Assembly: GCA_020444245.1 (NCBI GenBank)
Contig: JAHLLI010000002.1
Span: 124,001 to 188,000, forward strand
DNA length: 64,000 bases
Source: Actinomycetales bacterium
GTDB lineage: Bacteria; Actinomycetota; Actinomycetes; Actinomycetales; Cellulomonadaceae
Direction of reading: 5' to 3'
The notes under the pieces are model-generated. The model was not told the DNA's origin. It did not search any database and saw only the letters and a list, made by a program, of their open reading frames with translations. The translations under genes were made by a program, and so were the position numbers. This document shows, one piece after another, positions 44,864 to 63,672 of this stretch (its first letter is position 1; every line of letters begins with the position of its first letter).

Positions 44864-45957
44864 CCGACAACGACACGATCGACCTCGCCGTCGGCACCCT
44901 CGCCTCGGACTCGGTCCGGGTGGTCCTCGAGGGCCAGGCCGCTTCCGGCGCCTACGTCGCCAGCCCGACGTTCTCCCAGTACGGCTTCTCCTGGTTGCGG
45001 GACGGGTCGTTCATCGCCCTCGCCATGGACGCCGTCGGCGAACGCGGGTCGGCTGCCAGGTTCCACCGCTGGGTGTGCGAGGCGGTCTGGGGTGTGCGGG
45101 ACCGGGTCGACGAGATCGTCGCGCGGATCGCCACGGGCCGGGGCGTCGAGCCCGACCGCATGCTTCCCACCCGGTACGCGCTCGACGGGACGGTCGAGGC
45201 CGCGGGTGACGAGGCATGGCCCAACTTCCAGCTCGACGGCTACGGCACCTGGCTCTTCGCGCTGGAGAAGCACACCGCGGGCCGGCTGGACAACCACGAG
45301 GCCGAGGTCGCCGACCTCGCCGCGCGCTACCTCGAGGCCACATGGTCGCTCCCGTGCTTCGACTACTGGGAGGAGTTCGGCGACCGCCGCCACACCTCGA
45401 CTCTCGCGGCTGTCGCGGCGGGCCTCGGCGCGGCGGGCCGGATGCTCCGCAGCGACCGGTACACCGCCGCCGCGGCGCGGGTGCTGCGGGAGATCGAGAG
45501 CACGTGCGTGGCCGACGGCGCCTTCGTCAAGGGGCCGGCCGACCGGCGGGTGGACGCGAGCCTGCTGTCGCTGGCCACGCCGTTCGACCTCGTGCCCGTC
45601 GACGACGCCCGGATGGTCGCCACCGTCGATCGCGTCCGTGCCGAGCTCGTGACCCCCACCGGAGGCGTGCGCCGCTACGTCGGCGACTCCTACTACGGCG
45701 GCAGCCCGTGGTTGCTGCTCACGGCGTGGTTCGGGTGGCACGCGCGACGTTGCGGCCGGCCGGACGAGGCGCTCGCGGCGCGGCGATGGGTCGAGGCCAG
45801 GGCGGGCGAGCTCGGCCGGCTGGCCGAGCAGGACGTGTCCGAGCCCCAGGACCCGGCGACCGTGGCCGAGTGGGAGCGCAGGTGGGGTCCGGTCGCCGAC
45901 CCGCTGCTGTGGTCGCACGCGATGTACCTGCTGCTGGTCGCGGAGGACCGGGCGTGA
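44860..45957 (+). CDS. GH15-like glycoside hydrolase, no signal peptide (TTG start)
   Basis: AYVASPTFSQYGFSWLRDGSFIALAMDAVGE...NFQLDGYGTWLFAL: (alpha/alpha)6 GH15-type motifs; TTGA overlap with the permease stop. Confidence 0.8.
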   Translation: MTDNDTIDLAVGTLASDSVRVVLEGQAASGAYVASPTFSQYGFSWLRDGSFIALAMDAVGERGSAARFHRWVCEAVWGVRDRVDEIVARIATGRGVEPDRMLPTRYALDGTVEAAGDEAWPNFQLDGYGTWLFALEKHTAGRLDNHEAEVADLAARYLEATWSLPCFDYWEEFGDRRHTSTLAAVAAGLGAAGRMLRSDRYTAAAARVLREIESTCVADGAFVKGPADRRVDASLLSLATPFDLVPVDDARMVATVDRVRAELVTPTGGVRRYVGDSYYGGSPWLLLTAWFGWHARRCGRPDEALAARRWVEARAGELGRLAEQDVSEPQDPATVAEWERRWGPVADPLLWSHAMYLLLVAEDRA

Positions 45958-47561
45958 GCATCGTCGTCCCGACACGCGCGGTCCACGCTCCCGGCGAGCC
46001 GGTCGAGGTCGACCTCGAGCCCGCGGCATCGACGGCGTGCGAGGTCATCGTCACGCGCCTGGCCGAGGAGGTCGCGCGGGTCCAGGTGCGTCCGGGCCAG
46101 TCGCGGGTCGAGCTCGGGACGTTCCCCGTCGGCGGGTACGGCGTCGCGGTGGGGCAGGCGACCACGGCGTTCGACGTGCTCGAGGACCGTTGGGCCCGGC
46201 CGCGGTACGGGTTCGTGGCCAGGCTCGACGGATCGATGCCCGTGCGTGACGTGCAGCGCATGTTCCGGCGCTTCCATCTCAACGCGGCCCAGCTCTACGA
46301 CTGGGCCTACCGCCACTCGATGTTGCTCCCCCCGCAGGAGGTCTACCTCGACCCGCTCGGTCAGCAGCGCGACCTGGGGGCGATCTCGGCGCTGGCGCGG
46401 GAGCTGAGCGTCGTCGGGGTCGAACCACTCGGGTACGTCGCGGTCTACGCGATCGGGGCCGACGAGGTACCGGCCTGGTCCGACGCGCTCCTGCTGCGCC
46501 CGGACGGCAACCCCTACCGGCTGGGCGAGGACTTCCTGGTCCTGGTCGACCCCGGGCATGAGCGGTGGCGCGCCCATCTCCTGGACCAGCTCGAGCAGGT
46601 GGTCCAGGACACCGCGATCCGCGGCTTCCACCTGGACCAGTACGGCTGGCCGAAGGTCGCGCGGCGCGGCGACGGCGCCACCGTCGACCTCGCCACCTCC
46701 TTCACAGGGCTCATCGAGTCGGTCCGGTCGCGCCTGCCCGAGGCCCCGTTCATGTTCAACAACGTCAACGACTTCCCGACGCACGCGACGGCGGCGGCGC
46801 CGCAGAGCGCCACGTACATCGAGGTGTGGGACCCGCACACCACGCTGCGCGACCTCGGCGAGCTGGCGAGCCGGGCGCGGCAGCGACGTCCCGAGCACCC
46901 GCCCATCCTGTCGGCGTACCTGAGCTGCTACGCCGTCGCGCCGGAGGAGTCCGCGACCCGGGCAGCGATGCTCGTGCTGGCCACGGCCGCTTCGCACGGG
47001 GCCACCCACCTGCTGCTCGGCGAGGACGGCCACGCCCTGACCGACCCCTACTACCCGCGCAACCACACGCTCGCCCCGGAGTCCGTCGAGGCGCTGGTCG
47101 CGTGGTACGACTTCGTCGTCCGCCACGGCGACCTGCTCTACGACCCGGCGGCCGTCGACGTCACCCGCCACTACACGGGCGGCATCAACGAGGACGTCGT
47201 CGTGCACGCGGACGGGCTGCGCGTGGGCGTGGACCCCGAGGCCGGCGCGCTCTGGACCCGGGTGGTGCGCACTCCGCTGGGCTGGGTGGTTCACCTGATC
47301 AACCTGTGCGACCAACACGACACCGCGTGGGACGCGCCCAAGGCGCCCGTCGAACCCGTGGTCGGCGCCAGGATCCGGCTCTCGTTCGCCGACGACGCGA
47401 CCACGGTCCGCGCTGCGTCGCCCGAGCTGCCCGACCTGGTGCTGCTCGAGCCGCTGGGCCGCGTGCGCGGGCACCAGGACGACGCCCTGTCCGCCGGGCA
47501 GGGCGGGGTGGAGTTCGAGCTGCCGCCGCTCGGACTCTGGACGGTGGTCTGGATCTCCTGA
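45954..47561 (+). CDS. GH66-like dextranase / cyclo-isomaltooligosaccharide-type enzyme, no signal peptide
   Basis: NAAQLYDWAYRHSMLLPPQEVYLDPLGQ; IRGFHLDQYGWPK; MFNNVNDF; YIEVWDP: GH66-type motifs. Overlaps the GH15 gene (GTGA). Confidence 0.8.
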   Translation: MSIVVPTRAVHAPGEPVEVDLEPAASTACEVIVTRLAEEVARVQVRPGQSRVELGTFPVGGYGVAVGQATTAFDVLEDRWARPRYGFVARLDGSMPVRDVQRMFRRFHLNAAQLYDWAYRHSMLLPPQEVYLDPLGQQRDLGAISALARELSVVGVEPLGYVAVYAIGADEVPAWSDALLLRPDGNPYRLGEDFLVLVDPGHERWRAHLLDQLEQVVQDTAIRGFHLDQYGWPKVARRGDGATVDLATSFTGLIESVRSRLPEAPFMFNNVNDFPTHATAAAPQSATYIEVWDPHTTLRDLGELASRARQRRPEHPPILSAYLSCYAVAPEESATRAAMLVLATAASHGATHLLLGEDGHALTDPYYPRNHTLAPESVEALVAWYDFVVRHGDLLYDPAAVDVTRHYTGGINEDVVVHADGLRVGVDPEAGALWTRVVRTPLGWVVHLINLCDQHDTAWDAPKAPVEPVVGARIRLSFADDATTVRAASPELPDLVLLEPLGRVRGHQDDALSAGQGGVEFELPPLGLWTVVWIS

Positions 47562-47711: not shown

Positions 47712-47926
47712 GGGTGGTGCGGGGACCAGTCGCGACTCCCCGGATGCAAGGAAAGGAAGAAGCCCGGGACGGTCCTCACGCCGAGGACGAGGCTACGCGG
47801 TCGGTGCCGGTCGGGGTGTGCGGCAGACCGGCCGCCGGGGTGAGTCGGGTGGGCGCCGGGCGCTTGTCGCCGTCCGGTCGGGGACACTGGGTGAACACCG
47901 ACCGTAGCTTCGACAAGGAGTCCGCC

Positions 47927-48871
47927 GTGCCCGAGGGAACCGTCCGCTGGTTCGATGCCGACCGGGGGTTCGGTTTCATCGCCCTCGGGGAGGAGGCGGA
48001 GGACCTGTTCGTGCATGCTTCCGAGATCATCGGCGGCGACGCGACGAAGCTGCTCCGGGAGGGGCAGGTGGTCGAGTTCGAGATCGGGGACGGGGACCGC
48101 GGCCCGCAGGCTCGCCGGGTCCGGGTCACCGGTGACCAGGCCGCCGATGCTCCGGTAGGCGTGCTCGGCACGGTCGCCTGGTACGAGCCTGCCAAGGGGT
48201 ACGGCTTCGTCACGCCCGACGGCGGTGGTGCCGAGATCTTCGTGCACAGCTCGGCCATCGTGGGAGGCGGCGTGGTCTCGGAGGGGCAGCGGGTGGCGTT
48301 CCTCGTCGTCGACGGAGAGAAGGGCCCGCAGGCAGCCCACCTGCTGCCCTTGGGGGCCCAGGCCGCCCAGCAGGCGGTGGCGTCCGACGGAGCGGACGGC
48401 ACGGTCTCCTGGTACGACGGGGACAAGGGCTTCGGGTTCATCGTCCCCGACTCGGGCGGCCCCGACGTGTTCGTCCACGTCCGGGCGCTGGCCGGCGGGC
48501 TCACCGAGCTGCACGAGGGGGACCGGGTGACGTACGACGTCGCCGTGAGCGAGAAGGGCCCGCAGGCTCGCGACGTGCGCGTCGCGCACAGCTCGACACC
48601 TCGGGGCGCGGCCGCGGCGTCGACGACCCGTGGCCGGTCGGCACCCCGGGAGGCATCCGGCGTCCCGGCGCGCGGCGGCGAGGGTGTGGTCGCGCGCTAC
48701 GACGCGGAGCGGGGCTTCGGCTTCGTCACGCCGGACGCCGGGGGCGCGGACCTGTTCGTGCACGTGTCGGTCCTCAGGGGCGCCGAGGCGCTGCACCAGG
48801 GTGATCGGGTCCGGTACCAGGTGCGACAGAGCGATCGAGGGCCACAGGCAGACCGCGTCGAGCGGGTGTGA
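47927..48871 (+). CDS. Protein with four tandem cold-shock domains
   Basis: Four RNP1/RNP2 pairs: RGFGFI/LFVH, KGYGFV/IFVH, KGFGFI/VFVH, RGFGFV/LFVH. AAGGAG RBS 6 nt before GTG. Confidence 0.92.
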   Translation: MPEGTVRWFDADRGFGFIALGEEAEDLFVHASEIIGGDATKLLREGQVVEFEIGDGDRGPQARRVRVTGDQAADAPVGVLGTVAWYEPAKGYGFVTPDGGGAEIFVHSSAIVGGGVVSEGQRVAFLVVDGEKGPQAAHLLPLGAQAAQQAVASDGADGTVSWYDGDKGFGFIVPDSGGPDVFVHVRALAGGLTELHEGDRVTYDVAVSEKGPQARDVRVAHSSTPRGAAAASTTRGRSAPREASGVPARGGEGVVARYDAERGFGFVTPDAGGADLFVHVSVLRGAEALHQGDRVRYQVRQSDRGPQADRVERV

Positions 48872-56137: not shown

Positions 56138-59100
56138 ATGATCTCGCCGACCGCTGCTCCTTCACGGGCCGTCGAACACACCGTCGTCGACGGCACGACG
56201 CTGGGCCTCGACGACCGGCGCTACTACGCGATCCCGGCCTACGACCGCCTGCCGCCCTTCCTCATGACACTCGTCGGAGCCAGCGACCTCTGGCTGTTCG
56301 TCTCGAGCACCGGCGGGCTCACGGCCGGCCGCCGGGACGCCGACCGCGCGGTGTTCCCCTACTACACCGAGGACAAGGTCGCCGAGGGTGCGGGGCGCAC
56401 CGGTGGGCTCACCGAGCTGCGCGTGCACCGGCCGGACGGCACCTCGATCTGGTGGCGGCCGTTCGCGGAGGTGCGCCCGGGCGACGCCCCGGTCGCCCGC
56501 ACCCTCTACAAGGACCTCCTGGGCACCGCGCTCGTGTTCGAGGAGACACGCGCCGACCTCGGGCTGCGCTTCCGCGTGGCCTGGCAGACCAGCGCCCGCT
56601 ACGGCGTGGTGCGCACCTGCCAGCTCGGCTCCACCGTCGAGCACCCGACGGTCGTCCGGCTGCTGGACGGGTTCCGCAACCTCCTGCCCGCCGGAGCGAC
56701 CGCTCAGGTCCAGAACGAGCTCAGCATCCTGCTGGACGCGTACAAGCGAGCCGAGGTCGACGCGCGCACGGGCCTGGGCCTGTACTACCTGAGCTCGACC
56801 CTGACCGACCTGGCCGAGGCGAGCGAGTCGCTGCAAACGTCGGTCGCATGGCAGGTCGGGCTGACCGGGGTCCGCCACCTGGTGTCGGACCGTCAGCTCA
56901 CCGCCGTCAGGTCGGGCGAGCAGGCGCGTCCCGAGGTGCACGTGCGCGGGGAACGAGGTTCCTACCTCGTCGAGACCGAGCTGACGCTCGAGGCGCGCGA
57001 GTCCCGCAGCTGGCGCACGGTGGCCGATGTGGGGCTCTCCGCGGCGGACGTCGTGGCGCTGCGCGGGGAGCTCGAAGCGCCGGGCATCCTCGCCGCCCGG
57101 CTGGACGACGACATCGAGTCGACCCGGCGCGGCCTCGAGGTGCTGATCGGCGCGGCCGACGCCGCCCAGCTCACCGGCGACGAGCTCGCCGCGGCGCACC
57201 ACGGTGCGAACGTCCTGTTCAACTCGATGCGGGGCGGCGTCCCAGTCGACGGCTACCGGCTCCGGGCCGACGACATCCGGTCGTTCGTGCGCACGCGGAG
57301 CCCGCGCACCTCGCAGCGGTGCGCCGAGCAGCTCGCGGCGCTGCCTGCGGACCTGACCCACGAGGACCTGATGGCCGCCGCCGAGTCCGCGGGGGACGAC
57401 GACCTGTGGCGGCTGTGCCGGGAGTACCTGCCGTTGACCTTCAGCCGCCGGCACGGCGACCCGAGCCGGCCCTGGAACGCCTTCCGGATCGCGCTGCGCG
57501 ACGCCGACGGCCGGCCGAGCCTGGACTACCAGGGCAACTGGCGCGACATCTTCCAGAACTGGGAGGCGCTGGCCTGGTCCTTCCCCGAGTACGTCGAGTC
57601 GATGGTCGCGGTGTTCGTCGACGCCACGACCGCCGACGGCTACAACCCGTACCGGATCTCGCGTGACGGGGTGGACTGGGAGGTCCCGGAGCCGGAGAAC
57701 CCGTGGGCCAACATCGGCTACTGGAGCGACCACCAGCTGGTCTACCTCGCCAAGCTGCTGGAGACGTCCGAGCGGTTCCACCCCGGTCGGCTGAACCGAC
57801 TGACGAACCGCACCGCGTTCACGCACGCCGACGTGCCGTACCGGATCGCGTCCTACGCCCGGACCGTCGAGGACCCGTCCTCGACGATCACGTTCGACGA
57901 GGAGGCCGCGGCGGCGATCGCGCGCCGCGTCGCGGACGAGGGCTCGGACGGCAAGCTGGTGCACGGCCCGGACGGCGACCTCGTGCGGGTCACGCTCGGC
58001 GAGAAGCTCCTCGTGCTGATGCTCGCGAAGGTCGTGAACCTCGTCCCCGAGGGCGGCATCTGGATGAACACCCAGCGCCCCGAGTGGAACGACGCCAACA
58101 ACGCGCTGGTCGGGCGCGGGCTCTCCGTCGTCACGCTGGCGTACCTGCGCCGGTACCTCGGCGTCGTGCGCCCGTTGCTCGACCAGGACGTGGAGGTCGG
58201 TGTCGAGGTCGCCCGTCTCCTCACCCAGGTCGCCGACATCCTCGAACGGCACGCCGCGGGCACCGTCGACGGCTTCGACGACGTCGAGCGGCGGCGCGTG
58301 GTGGACGCACTCGGTGCAGCCGGGACCGCCTACCGCGGCGACGTCTACCGCGGTGTCACCGGTGAGTGCGTCACGGTCGCGCGCGAGGAGATCCGCCGGG
58401 CCATCGACGTGGTGCTGACGTACGTCGAGTCGGGTCTGCGCGCCAACCGTCGGGCGGACGGGCTCTACCACTCCTACAACGTCCTGCAGCTCGGCGAGGG
58501 GCGTCTGACGATCCGGCGGCTGCAGGAGATGCTCGAGGGGCAGGTCGCCGTGCTCTCCTCCGGGCTGCTCACGCCCGCCGAGTCGCTGGGCGTCCTGAGG
58601 GCGCTGCGGGGCAGTGCCCTGTACCGGGCGGACCAGAACAGCTACATGCTCTACCCGGACCGTGACCTGCCGGGATTCCTCGAGAAGAACGTGCTCAGTC
58701 CCGAGCAGGTGGCGCGGTGCCCCCTGATCGACGCCCTCGTGCGGGAGGGGGACCGGTCGGTCGTCGTGCGCGACGTCGCCGGTGGCCACCACTTCGCTCC
58801 CTCGATCCACAACGCCCGCGACGTCGTCGGCGCGCTGGAGCGACGGCAGCGCAGGGCGCAGGCCGAGGGTGAGGGCGCCGTGGCGACGCTCGTCGAGGCC
58901 GGCCGGGACTCGCTCCTGGAGGTCTTCGAGGAGGTGTTCCGGCACTCGGAGTTCACCGGGCGGTCGGGCTCGTTCTTCGCCTACGAGGGCCTGGGCAGCA
59001 TCTACTGGCACATGGTCTCCAAGCTCCTGCTCGCCGCGCAGGAGGCGCTGGAGCTGGCGATCGCCGAGGGCGTCGACGCCGGCGCGGTCGACGCGCTGCG

Positions 59101-59599
59101 CGACGCCTACGAGGACGTGCGCCAGGGGCTGGGCTACTGCAAGACGCCGGAGGTCTACGGGGCGTTCCCCGTCGATCCCTACTCGCACACGCCCGGCGGG
59201 AAGGGTGCGCGCCAGCCGGGCATGACGGGACAGGTCAAGGAGGAGGTCCTCACGCGCGCCGGGGAGCTCGGGCTGCGGGTGGAGGACGGCGCGATCTGCT
59301 TCCGGCCGGTCCTGCTGCGCGCGCAGGAGTGGACCTCGGCCCCGGCGGTGTTCCGTTTCGTCGACGTCGCCGGGCGTGACCGCGGCCTCGACCTCCCGGC
59401 GGGGAGTCTGGCCTTCACGTTCTGCCAGGTGCCCGTCGTCTACGAGCGCGGGGACCGGGCGGCGGTCAGGGTGCGGATGGCCGACGGCTCGCAGACCGGG
59501 TACGACGGTGCCGCGCTCCCGGTCGAGGTGAGCGCCGAGGTGTTCCGTCGTTCCGGTCGGGTGGCCGAGATCCACGTCACGGTGACGCCCTCGGAGTAG
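56138..59599 (+). CDS. 1153-aa putative (alpha/alpha)6-barrel glycoside hydrolase/phosphorylase-like protein, family unassigned
   Basis: No signal peptide; WRDIFQNWEALAWSFPEYVESMVAVFVDATTADGYNPYRI; GYWSDHQLVYL; GGIWMNTQRPEWNDANNALVG resembles the GH94-like WND catalytic loop. Confidence 0.6.
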   Translation: MISPTAAPSRAVEHTVVDGTTLGLDDRRYYAIPAYDRLPPFLMTLVGASDLWLFVSSTGGLTAGRRDADRAVFPYYTEDKVAEGAGRTGGLTELRVHRPDGTSIWWRPFAEVRPGDAPVARTLYKDLLGTALVFEETRADLGLRFRVAWQTSARYGVVRTCQLGSTVEHPTVVRLLDGFRNLLPAGATAQVQNELSILLDAYKRAEVDARTGLGLYYLSSTLTDLAEASESLQTSVAWQVGLTGVRHLVSDRQLTAVRSGEQARPEVHVRGERGSYLVETELTLEARESRSWRTVADVGLSAADVVALRGELEAPGILAARLDDDIESTRRGLEVLIGAADAAQLTGDELAAAHHGANVLFNSMRGGVPVDGYRLRADDIRSFVRTRSPRTSQRCAEQLAALPADLTHEDLMAAAESAGDDDLWRLCREYLPLTFSRRHGDPSRPWNAFRIALRDADGRPSLDYQGNWRDIFQNWEALAWSFPEYVESMVAVFVDATTADGYNPYRISRDGVDWEVPEPENPWANIGYWSDHQLVYLAKLLETSERFHPGRLNRLTNRTAFTHADVPYRIASYARTVEDPSSTITFDEEAAAAIARRVADEGSDGKLVHGPDGDLVRVTLGEKLLVLMLAKVVNLVPEGGIWMNTQRPEWNDANNALVGRGLSVVTLAYLRRYLGVVRPLLDQDVEVGVEVARLLTQVADILERHAAGTVDGFDDVERRRVVDALGAAGTAYRGDVYRGVTGECVTVAREEIRRAIDVVLTYVESGLRANRRADGLYHSYNVLQLGEGRLTIRRLQEMLEGQVAVLSSGLLTPAESLGVLRALRGSALYRADQNSYMLYPDRDLPGFLEKNVLSPEQVARCPLIDALVREGDRSVVVRDVAGGHHFAPSIHNARDVVGALERRQRRAQAEGEGAVATLVEAGRDSLLEVFEEVFRHSEFTGRSGSFFAYEGLGSIYWHMVSKLLLAAQEALELAIAEGVDAGAVDALRDAYEDVRQGLGYCKTPEVYGAFPVDPYSHTPGGKGARQPGMTGQVKEEVLTRAGELGLRVEDGAICFRPVLLRAQEWTSAPAVFRFVDVAGRDRGLDLPAGSLAFTFCQVPVVYERGDRAAVRVRMADGSQTGYDGAALPVEVSAEVFRRSGRVAEIHVTVTPSE

Positions 59600-59625
59600 G
59601 CCCCCGAGGCCGGGTGTCCACGCAC

Positions 59626-59662
59626 AAGAGAGCGCTATCTCACAATGAGAGAGCGCTCTCTT
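59626..59662. promoter_or_regulatory. Two LacI-type operator sites upstream of the GH16 gene
   Basis: AAGAGAGCGCTATCTC (59626-59641) and GAGAGAGCGCTCTCTT (59647-59662), framed by inverted CACAAGAGAGCGCT / AGCGCTCTCTTGTG. Confidence 0.75.
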
Positions 59663-59721
59663 GTGTGTTTCCCGACCGGGTGGTTGGCTGTGCGCACCAC
59701 TCAACGTCGAGAGGGAAGCTC

Positions 59722-62700
59722 ATGCGCTCCTACCGCCCCCGGAACGCAGCCCGCGTGGTGGCTGCAGCGGCGACCGCGATGGCCACCGCCGCCCTCGCGC
59801 TCGTCGGGACGGCCCCGGCCGTCGCCGCTCCGGCACCGCCGGTGCTCGTCGTCGACGACTTCGAGTACGCGTCCGGCCTGCCCAGCGGCGCCGACGCGAA
59901 CGGGATCCCGATCGGCTTCTACACGTTCGCCGGCGGCGGCGCGACCATCTCCCTGGACAACCCCGGAACGCCGCCGACCCCGCCGCTCGCGGCGAACCCG
60001 GCGCCCAACAAGGCCCTCCAGATCGACATCGACTCGCCGTCCTACGCGGGCGTCATCCACGCCTTCGAGAACGACACCGCTGACACCTGGGTCACCCAGG
60101 ACTGGAGCGAGTACGCGGGCTTCACGATGTGGCTCTACGGCCAGGGGACGAACAGCAACCTCTTCATCGACCTGCTGGAGAACCGGAAGCCGGGTTCGAC
60201 CACGGACGACGCCCAGCGCTGGACCGTCACCTTCACCGACGACTTCACCGGCTGGAAGCAGCTCGAGTTCCCCTTCGCCGACTTCACCCAGAAGTCCGTC
60301 GGCAACAACGCGCCGACCGACGGGTTCGAGCGCTACGAGATGCACGGCTGGGCCTTCGGCGCGGTGGACACCGGTGGCCCGCAGACGTACTACGTCGACG
60401 ACGTCGGTGTGTACGGCGTCGCGCCGGTGGCCCCGCTGGCGGTCACCTTCACCAGCGCGAGCTACGACGTCGCCGAGGGCACGACCGGTGACATCACCGT
60501 CAAGCTGAACCGTCCGCTGCGCGACGAGGACCCGGACGAGGTCTCCGTCGCCTACGCGACCCAGCCCGGCACCGCGGTCGCCGGGCGGGAGTACACACCC
60601 ACCTCCGGCACCCTCACCTTCGCCAAGGGCGGGCCGCGCGAGCTGTCCTTCCCGCTCCGGACGTTCGACGACACGAAGTACGAGGGTGACGAGCACGTCG
60701 TCCTCCAGCTGTCCGACCCGGCCCCGAGCGGGGGACTGAACCCGGGCTTCACGATGCGGGCGGCCGCCACGATCAAGGACGACGACCCGTACGACCCGCT
60801 CCTGCTGGACGACTTCGAGTCCGCGCCCGCGCTGTGGCACGCCGGGAGCGGCGTCACGCTCAGCAACCCGGAGATCGCCGCCGGCAGCCCGGACGCCGTC
60901 CCCGGCCAGGGCGCCTACGAGCACGTGCTCCGGGCGGACACGCCGGTCCTCGTGACCATCGACGTCAAGGGCCGGGTGTGCAACAAGGGCAACGGCGTGA
61001 TCCCGGTCGTGCTGCTCAGCACCCCGGACTTCGACGCCACCACCGTGGACCCCGCCACCGTCATGTTCGGCGACGCCCACGAGGCCCACACGGTCAAGGG
61101 CGTCGCCGCCAAGCACGTGGCCGACGTGAACCACGACGGCCGCAAGGACCTGGTGTTCCACTTCCGGTTCAAGGACACCGGGTTCGCGTGTGGCGCGACG
61201 GTCACCCCGTTCACCGGTGAGACCTACGACGGGACCGCGATCACGAACGGCGGTCCCGCGGCGAGCTTCGGGCGGGACTTCGCCCTCGGTCAGGACTGGA
61301 CGGGCAAGGACGCCTTGAGCTTCTGGTACTTCGGCCAGGGCACCGGCGAGACGGTCGACGTCGACCTGCTCGACAACCGTGCGCCCGACCCCGGCCCGGA
61401 CGGTTGGGACCTGGCCTGGTCCGACGAGTTCGACACCCCTGCCGGCACCGCGCCCGACCCCACCAAGTGGGGCTACGAGCTGGGCGACGGCACGGCGAAC
61501 GGGAACCCGGGGTGGGGCAACAGCGAGCTGCAGTACTACACCGACAGCACGGACAACGCCGCCACCGACGGCGACGGCAACCTGGTGATCACCACCCGGC
61601 CCGCCGACGGCTCCCTCCAGTGCTACTACGGCCCGTGCGAGTACACCTCGGCGCGGCTGCTCTCGGCGAGCAAGGCCGAGTTCGCCTACGGGCGCATCGA
61701 GTCCCGCATCCAGCTCCCCGCCGGCGAGGACGGCCTCTGGCCGGCGTTCTGGAGCCTGGGGACCGACATCAACCGGGTCGGATGGCCGCAGACCGGCGAG
61801 ATCGACGTCATGGAGTACGTCAGCCGGATCCCGGACAGGGTCTTCGGCACCATCCACGGCCCGGGCTACTCCGGCGGTGAGTCGTTCGGGGACATCCTCG
61901 ACGTGCCCGACTTGACGGCCGGGTACCACACCTACGCGATCGAGTGGGAGCCCGACCTGATCACCTGGTACGTCGACGACGTCCCGTACTTCACGGCGAA
62001 CCCGGCCGACGTGGCGCCGAACGCGTGGGTGTTCAACGACCCGGTGTTCCTGCTGCTCAACATGGCGATCGGCGGCAACTTCGGCGGGGCGGTCAGCGAC
62101 CAGCTCACCTTCCCGCAGTCGATGAAGGTCGACTACGTCCGCGTCTACCAGGGCCCGGACACCGCGGAGCGCTTCCAGGCCCCGTTCGTCGACGACTTCA
62201 CCGGCTGGAAGAAGATCACCGTCCCGTTCTCCGACTTCACCCGCAGCGCGACGCAGCCGGCCGGCGCGCCCGATGACGGGCTGGGTCTCGACCAGGTCTG
62301 GGGCTACGGCTTCACCCTGCCGGCCGGTGGCTCCACGACCGGTGCCGTCCTGCTCGACCAGGTGCGCCTGGTCGACACCACGGCGCCGACCGTGACCATC
62401 ACGGACGACGTGGACGGCGACGTGGCGACCGGTGACGTCACGTTCACCTTCGCCTTCAGCGAGGACGTCGGCACGAGCTTCACCAAGGACGACGTCGCCC
62501 TGACCGGTGGCACCAAGGGCGCGTTCACCCGGGTCGACGCGACGCACGCCACGCTCGTGGCCAAGCCGCCGGCCGACGCGACGGGGACCCTCGAGGTCAG
62601 CGTCGCCGCCGGGGCCTTCACGGATCTCGCCGGCAACCCGAGCACGTCCGCGGCCACCGCGCAGCAGGCCTACGACACGCCGCCGCTGCCGGGTGGCGGG

Positions 62701-63672
62701 TTCGTCATCTCGTTCGACGAGGCGACGGCGCCGGTGCTGACGGGGTTCGGTGGGGCGGAGGACTCGCAGGTGGTGGTCGACCCGACCGACGCGGCGAACA
62801 AGGTCGCCAGGGTGGTCAAGGCCGACGGTGCGCAGGTCTGGGCGGGTACCACGGTGTCGACCGAGCCGGGTCTGACGGTCCCGGCGATCCCGTTCGCGGC
62901 CGGTGCCACGGTCATGACGGCGCGGGTGTGGTCGCCGGACGCGGGCATCCCGGTCCGGCTGAAGGTCGAGAACTCGGCGGTCGGGTCGACGTCGGTGGAG
63001 ACCGAGGCCACCACGACGGTCGCCGGGGGGTGGGAGACGTTGACCTTCGACTTCGCCGACCAGGTCGCCGGCACCCCGGCGCTGGACCTGGCCGCGACCT
63101 ACGACAGGGTCTCGATCTTCTTCGACTTCGGCACGGCCGGCAGCGGGAAGACCTACTACCTCGACGACCTCACCTGGCCGGCGCCCACCTTCGCGATCTC
63201 GTTCGACGAGGCGACGGCGCCGGTGCTGACGGGGTTCGGTGGGGCGGAGGACTCGCAGGTGGTGGTCGACCCGACCGACGCGGCGAACAAGGTCGCCAGG
63301 GTGGTCAAGGCCGACGGTGCGCAGGTCTGGGCGGGTACCACGGTGTCGACCGAGCCGGGTCTGACGGTCCCGGCGATCCCGTTCGCGGCCGGTGCCACGG
63401 TCATGACGGCGCGGGTGTGGTCGCCGGACGCGGGCATCCCGGTCCGGCTGAAGGTCGAGAACTCGGCGGTCGGGTCGACGTCGGTGGAGACCGAGGCCAC
63501 CACGACGGTCGCCGGGGGGTGGGAGACGTTGACCTTCGACTTCGCCGACCAGGTCGCCGGCACCCCGGCGCTGGACCTGGCCGCGACCTACGACAGGGTC
63601 TCGATCTTCTTCGACTTCGGCACGGCCGGCAGCGGGAAGACCTACTACCTCGACGACCTCACCTGGCCGTAG
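59722..63672 (+). CDS. Secreted multidomain GH16 endo-beta-1,3-glucanase (laminarinase-like)
   Basis: Signal peptide; CBM11-like domain; Calx-beta-like domain; GH16 with GEIDVMEYV; Ig-like domain; two identical C-terminal beta-domains. ATG at 59722. Confidence 0.9.
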   Translation: MRSYRPRNAARVVAAAATAMATAALALVGTAPAVAAPAPPVLVVDDFEYASGLPSGADANGIPIGFYTFAGGGATISLDNPGTPPTPPLAANPAPNKALQIDIDSPSYAGVIHAFENDTADTWVTQDWSEYAGFTMWLYGQGTNSNLFIDLLENRKPGSTTDDAQRWTVTFTDDFTGWKQLEFPFADFTQKSVGNNAPTDGFERYEMHGWAFGAVDTGGPQTYYVDDVGVYGVAPVAPLAVTFTSASYDVAEGTTGDITVKLNRPLRDEDPDEVSVAYATQPGTAVAGREYTPTSGTLTFAKGGPRELSFPLRTFDDTKYEGDEHVVLQLSDPAPSGGLNPGFTMRAAATIKDDDPYDPLLLDDFESAPALWHAGSGVTLSNPEIAAGSPDAVPGQGAYEHVLRADTPVLVTIDVKGRVCNKGNGVIPVVLLSTPDFDATTVDPATVMFGDAHEAHTVKGVAAKHVADVNHDGRKDLVFHFRFKDTGFACGATVTPFTGETYDGTAITNGGPAASFGRDFALGQDWTGKDALSFWYFGQGTGETVDVDLLDNRAPDPGPDGWDLAWSDEFDTPAGTAPDPTKWGYELGDGTANGNPGWGNSELQYYTDSTDNAATDGDGNLVITTRPADGSLQCYYGPCEYTSARLLSASKAEFAYGRIESRIQLPAGEDGLWPAFWSLGTDINRVGWPQTGEIDVMEYVSRIPDRVFGTIHGPGYSGGESFGDILDVPDLTAGYHTYAIEWEPDLITWYVDDVPYFTANPADVAPNAWVFNDPVFLLLNMAIGGNFGGAVSDQLTFPQSMKVDYVRVYQGPDTAERFQAPFVDDFTGWKKITVPFSDFTRSATQPAGAPDDGLGLDQVWGYGFTLPAGGSTTGAVLLDQVRLVDTTAPTVTITDDVDGDVATGDVTFTFAFSEDVGTSFTKDDVALTGGTKGAFTRVDATHATLVAKPPADATGTLEVSVAAGAFTDLAGNPSTSAATAQQAYDTPPLPGGGFVISFDEATAPVLTGFGGAEDSQVVVDPTDAANKVARVVKADGAQVWAGTTVSTEPGLTVPAIPFAAGATVMTARVWSPDAGIPVRLKVENSAVGSTSVETEATTTVAGGWETLTFDFADQVAGTPALDLAATYDRVSIFFDFGTAGSGKTYYLDDLTWPAPTFAISFDEATAPVLTGFGGAEDSQVVVDPTDAANKVARVVKADGAQVWAGTTVSTEPGLTVPAIPFAAGATVMTARVWSPDAGIPVRLKVENSAVGSTSVETEATTTVAGGWETLTFDFADQVAGTPALDLAATYDRVSIFFDFGTAGSGKTYYLDDLTWP
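62707..63669 (+). repeat. Tandem duplication of a 474-bp segment encoding a C-terminal beta-domain (period 489 bp)
   Basis: 62707-63180 and 63196-63669 appear identical base for base by eye. Confidence 0.93.

Follow-up and report, generated by a model that had tools for sequence, protein, structure and literature searches.

A GH16 catalytic domain nested inside a CBM11 beta-sandwich in a predicted secreted glucanase of Actinomycetota

In a protein encoded in the window (the whole stretch of actinobacterial DNA analysed here, 64,000 nucleotides), a GH16 catalytic domain interrupts a CBM11 beta-sandwich at one of its loops and does not simply lie beside it. Carbohydrate-binding modules (CBMs) are commonly pictured as separate beads that linkers connect to enzymes. 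The original prediction had placed GH16 inside a split second copy of a CBM11-like domain at 60797-62385, which is close to the host unit as measured (60799-62376, aa 396-921) and is borne out by the complementary parts of the CBM_11 profile that the two flanks match. It missed, however, a second inserted domain (aa 443-547), and the sandwich is thus doubly nested, interrupted by this domain (insert A) and by a complete GH16. A single open frame at 59614-63672 (+ strand) gives the 1,352-aa protein and holds all the motifs quoted in that prediction. The protein is most likely an extracellular endo-beta-1,3(-1,4)-glucanase; it is probably secreted, with its true start at Met37 followed by a signal peptide, in which case the GTG at 59614 would be an over-extension. 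In a Pfam scan of the protein, CBM_11 is matched by two separate regions, and Calx-beta, GH16 and Big_12 are recognized as well; annotation pipelines list the protein as a CBM fragment beside GH16. Its features and the adjacent upstream gene are as follows:

56138..59599, + strand: GH149 1,3-beta-glucan phosphorylase, adjacent upstream gene (NCBIfam NF058639, 1470 bits)
59722..59838, + strand: putative true start (Met37) and predicted signal peptide, sequence MRSYRPRNAARVVAAAATAMATAALALVGTAPAVAA
59839..60417, + strand: intact CBM11 copy, aa 76-268 (Pfam CBM_11 55.6 bits; AF2 pLDDT 88.9; Foldseek 1v0a)
60427..60795, + strand: Calx-beta domain, aa 272-394 (Pfam 50.3 bits)
60799..60939, + strand: split host CBM11 segment 1, aa 396-442 (Pfam profile, AF2 model, relatives)
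60940..61254, + strand: insert A, aa 443-547, with an EF-hand-like loop (delimited from relatives; without Pfam family)
61255..61389, + strand: split host CBM11 segment 2, aa 548-592 (Pfam profile, AF2 model, relatives)
61408..62154, + strand: GH16 catalytic domain, aa 599-847 (Pfam PF00722; PDB 2hyk; Foldseek 2hyk, 3atg)
62155..62376, + strand: segment 3 of the split host CBM11 with the short connector leading into it, aa 848-921 (Pfam CBM_11 53.8 bits alone)
62374..62661, + strand: bacterial Ig-like domain Big_12, aa 921-1016 (Pfam 39 bits)
62707..63669, + strand: two near-identical 163-aa C-terminal repeats, a 489-nt tandem duplication (no Pfam family)

The C-terminal repeats are near-identical in DNA as well, with a 489-nt period, and would reflect either duplication in the very recent past or a problem of the assembly.

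The N-terminal part of the host alone scores 19.4 bits against Pfam CBM_11, below the cut-off, and covers profile positions 15-102, and the C-terminal part alone scores 53.8 bits over positions 110-180. When joined, they score 80.8 bits over positions 15-180 of 182, which exceeds both the two separate scores added together and the score of the intact copy (55.6 bits). Because the joined score is above that sum and the profile parts are complementary, both flanks are one CBM11 domain, which matches the whole-domain profile once the inserts are omitted but is not contiguous in the protein. The intact copy is CBM11 both by profile and by fold, 1v0a being its first Foldseek match. The two halves do correspond to the start and end of the intact copy, as had been proposed, since their profile parts do not overlap and their strands follow the same order.

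Structure prediction is in agreement with this assignment. An AlphaFold2 (AF2) model of aa 390-925, built from 18 sequences, reached pLDDT 86.6 and pTM 0.80, and neither separate folds nor full domains were seen on each side of GH16; the intact copy, modelled alone, reached pLDDT 88.9. Foldseek with the nested-unit model gave GH16 alone among the matches listed (2hyk and 3atg included), and the host fold was therefore checked via the intact copy, whose best match is 1v0a, i.e., CtCBM11 (TM 0.67/0.75). According to the strand lists of the predicted models, the host strands keep the order of the intact copy, with insert A between strands 60-65 and 70-75 of the latter and GH16 between host strands equivalent to 107-114 and 126-133. 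In these models, the segments on either side of the guest appear to complete the parent fold. Together, the CBM_11 profile, the AF2 model and the grouping of each half with other hosts (see below) support the loop insertion that the original prediction favored over a linker.

The guest itself is a complete GH16 domain of the laminarinase type, recognized both by its profile (PF00722, 75.8 bits against a cut-off of 22) and by the motif E729-x-D731-x-x-E734; the ExDxxE motif is present in 53 of 56 GH16 domains. Its best PDB matches are the laminarinases 2hyk (E 1.7e-69) and 3atg. The adjacent gene encodes a GH149 enzyme that passes the equivalog model NF058639 (1470 bits; cut-off 1150), and GH149 is present in at least 8 other nested GH16 loci. 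Since GH149 lies upstream and recurs at other nested loci, these genes point to beta-1,3-glucan as the probable substrate of the nested enzyme. Further away in the window, a frame at 45216-47561 with a GH66 match lies near ABC transporter genes; its N-terminal part looks non-coding, so that its start is probably internal. Additionally, a 385-aa frame at 47714-48871 contains four tandem stretches of cold-shock domain, which is unusual for a bacterial cold-shock protein.

In insert A, of about 105 aa, residues D504-D512 read as an EF-hand-like loop (DxNxDGxxD) and two cysteines (C456 and C526) are invariant; the domain has no Pfam family and no PDB match. Most nested relatives do not have it, and in Cellulomonas relatives segment 1 joins directly to segment 2. 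Two Chloroflexota proteins (L154 and L159) carry at the same loop an unrelated domain of about 150 aa, helical-looking as judged by sequence.

Nesting was searched for in the family of the window's genome, in wider genome contigs and with a junction profile. The original prediction had suggested looking in other actinobacteria, and the arrangement is indeed found there and in Chloroflexota as well: 53 complete nested proteins from these two phyla share one break point, in Cellulomonadaceae-type, Agromyces, Demequina, Nanopelagicales and Chloroflexota records. Within the window's family, the search output as we read it shows the nesting in 10 of 222 genomes, the window's own included; for the class to which an Anaerolineae relative belongs, 396 genomes were sampled and about 40 of them (counted by eye) match the whole junction profile. 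For the window's order and class, the counts are at least 2 of about 395 genomes each, which are lower bounds because in the first look no more than 11 candidates were scored in any one genome. Calx-beta directly precedes the split CBM11 in the 53 nested proteins, bar one that ends at a contig end, and most of them also have intact CBM11 copies upstream. Conversely, none of 116 non-nested GH16 rows has a CBM11 in frame, one further row having a weak one. As 53 proteins are broken at the same place, the nesting is not due to chance, and the recurrence in more than 50 proteins of two phyla, with an apparently single origin, shows that the design is stable and no mere accident of sequence. An assembly or frameshift artefact is ruled out by the same complete proteins, which come from many genomes. 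One 2,715-aa Chloroflexota protein (L042, 4402-12546) combines the nested CBM11/GH16 with six more CBM11 copies, Calx-beta domains and a GH3-like C-terminal part.

A tree built from the 53 hosts together with 119 intact CBM11 copies unites the hosts in a single clade (SH-aLRT 97), as does a tree of the N part alone (SH-aLRT 96); with the C half alone, a single host clade is not rejected (AU p 0.997). Because the hosts stand as one clade against the intact copies, GH16 likely entered CBM11 once, which is the simplest reading of the trees. Two insertions, or a swap of GH16 in place, would account for the free GH16 tree, in which nested rows fall into two groups (12 Chloroflexota members versus the other 41), and would fit either functional reading discussed below; nevertheless, a GH16 tree constrained to one nested clade is not rejected (AU p 0.50) and the hosts are one clade, and we regard such a history as improbable. 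Far less credible still is that the flanks are remnants of two CBM11 domains that decayed on each side of GH16. The intact copies stand in tandem in these proteins, so decay of neighbors is conceivable, but the halves are complementary and non-overlapping on one profile, the AF2 fold is confident and both halves trace to one host clade; the complementary profile parts and this shared history rule that reading out.

After its entry, the nested gene seems to have moved between lineages. The window's GH16 groups in the GH16 tree with copies of Demequina and Chloroflexota, apart from those of its own genus; relatives of the window's GH149 sit in several of these loci; and the window's transporter genes share 70-73% identity with neighbors of the Nanopelagicales copy. 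Taken together, the odd tree placement, the shared GH149 relatives and the similar transporter genes suggest gene transfer, although errors in the binning of metagenome-assembled genomes may affect single cases.

Of the 48 nested proteins that were parsed, 46 have a return connector of 4 residues from GH16 to CBM11, and the connector from the host strand into GH16 is also short, so GH16 is held at both ends. With the GH16 jelly roll sitting in the CBM11 loop and tethered by these connectors, we propose that CBM11 acts as a rigid cradle fixing GH16 relative to the upstream Calx-beta and intact CBM11, where a flexible linker would otherwise stand. Glucan binding would probably fall mostly to the intact CBM11 copies, the host having probably sacrificed some of its ligand face to serve as a scaffold, and the freed oligosaccharides would be imported and then phosphorolysed by the neighboring GH149 enzyme. 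As to the ligand face, GH16 occupies the loop that carries D99 in CtCBM11, and the host profile alignment has no counterpart of Y129, the aromatic position before the QP motif; we take both residues of CtCBM11 to be ligand residues. None of 44 QP-type hosts has an aromatic there, versus 26 of 30 QP-type intact copies. However, 65 intact GNGAP-type copies also lack it, and this loss is thus not special to hosts. R554 and F556 are invariant on the host CBM11, which could therefore still bind sugar.

As a whole, this reading, a secreted glucanase with GH16 nested in a CBM11 cradle and working with GH149, is the one we consider probable. Its main competitor is that the nesting is neutral: a GH16 with close termini simply accommodates being placed in a loop, while the host CBM11 binds glucan in the ordinary way, as it would on a linker. 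Close termini are plausible because circularly permuted GH16 structures exist (1cpn, 1cpm and 1ajk, found among the PDB matches), deletion of an internal CBM from a GH26 changed nothing measurable (PMC13357471), and the conservation of R554 and F556 would suit an ordinary binder. On the other hand, a single arrangement across two phyla with a near-constant 4-residue connector suggests constraint, as does the finding that none of the 116 non-nested GH16 rows has a CBM11 adjoining it, and the aromatic present in most QP-type intact copies is missing from hosts; we therefore judge neutral nesting unlikely, though deserving of some weight. If the cradle reading is extended, CBM11 might be a dedicated cradle with two slots, one always filled by GH16 and the other empty or holding one of two unrelated guests, that sets as a scaffold the geometry of a surface-bound glucanase and that gene transfer has carried between Chloroflexota and Actinomycetota; this wider proposal is tentative, and on balance we doubt it. 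The natural variants, with the second slot empty or filled by either guest type, offer a ready series for testing rigid CBM-enzyme geometry on insoluble glucan, and the nested GH16/CBM11 design a template for glucanase engineering.

Nesting of enzymes and CBMs has precedents, most of them in the reverse topology, which is known in GH13, GH10 and GH26 (PMC7848910, PMC13357471). SusG (CBM58 in GH13), Xyn10C/Pm25 (CBM4 in GH10, PMC7848910) and BcWH2_GH26 (CBM112 in GH26, PMC13357471) are nested as here, but in all three the CBM is the guest, whereas here the guest is the enzyme; in the last one, CBM deletion left the kinetics unchanged (PMC13357471). The laminarinases 2hyk (Nocardiopsis) and 3atg (Cellulosimicrobium) share family and fold with the present GH16, with catalytic domains about 50% identical, but the matches span the catalytic domain alone, with no host CBM11 around it. 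Likewise, CtCBM11 of Lic26A-Cel5E (1v0a, 6r31) shares its fold with the intact copy, and a complex of CBM11 with mixed-linkage glucan has been solved (6r31); CtCBM11 is, however, uninterrupted and carries Y129 and D99, for which the host has either no equivalent or a substituted one. Literature searches, covering few subscription papers, turned up no account of a GH16 nested in CBM11. A solved case with the enzyme as the guest is BoPDA, a polysaccharide deacetylase of Bacteroides ovatus whose crystal structure revealed an enzyme inserted in a CBM, an arrangement that its authors call unique to that enzyme (PMC11713874). In both proteins a catalytic domain lies inside a CBM beta-sandwich, known from a crystal in BoPDA and predicted here, but BoPDA is a CE4 deacetylase of capsule synthesis in a CBM2b-like module with one insert, whereas the present host has two. 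Enzyme-in-CBM nesting as such is thus already known from BoPDA, a CE4 enzyme, and it is the placement of GH16 in CBM11 and the double nesting that set the present protein apart from it.
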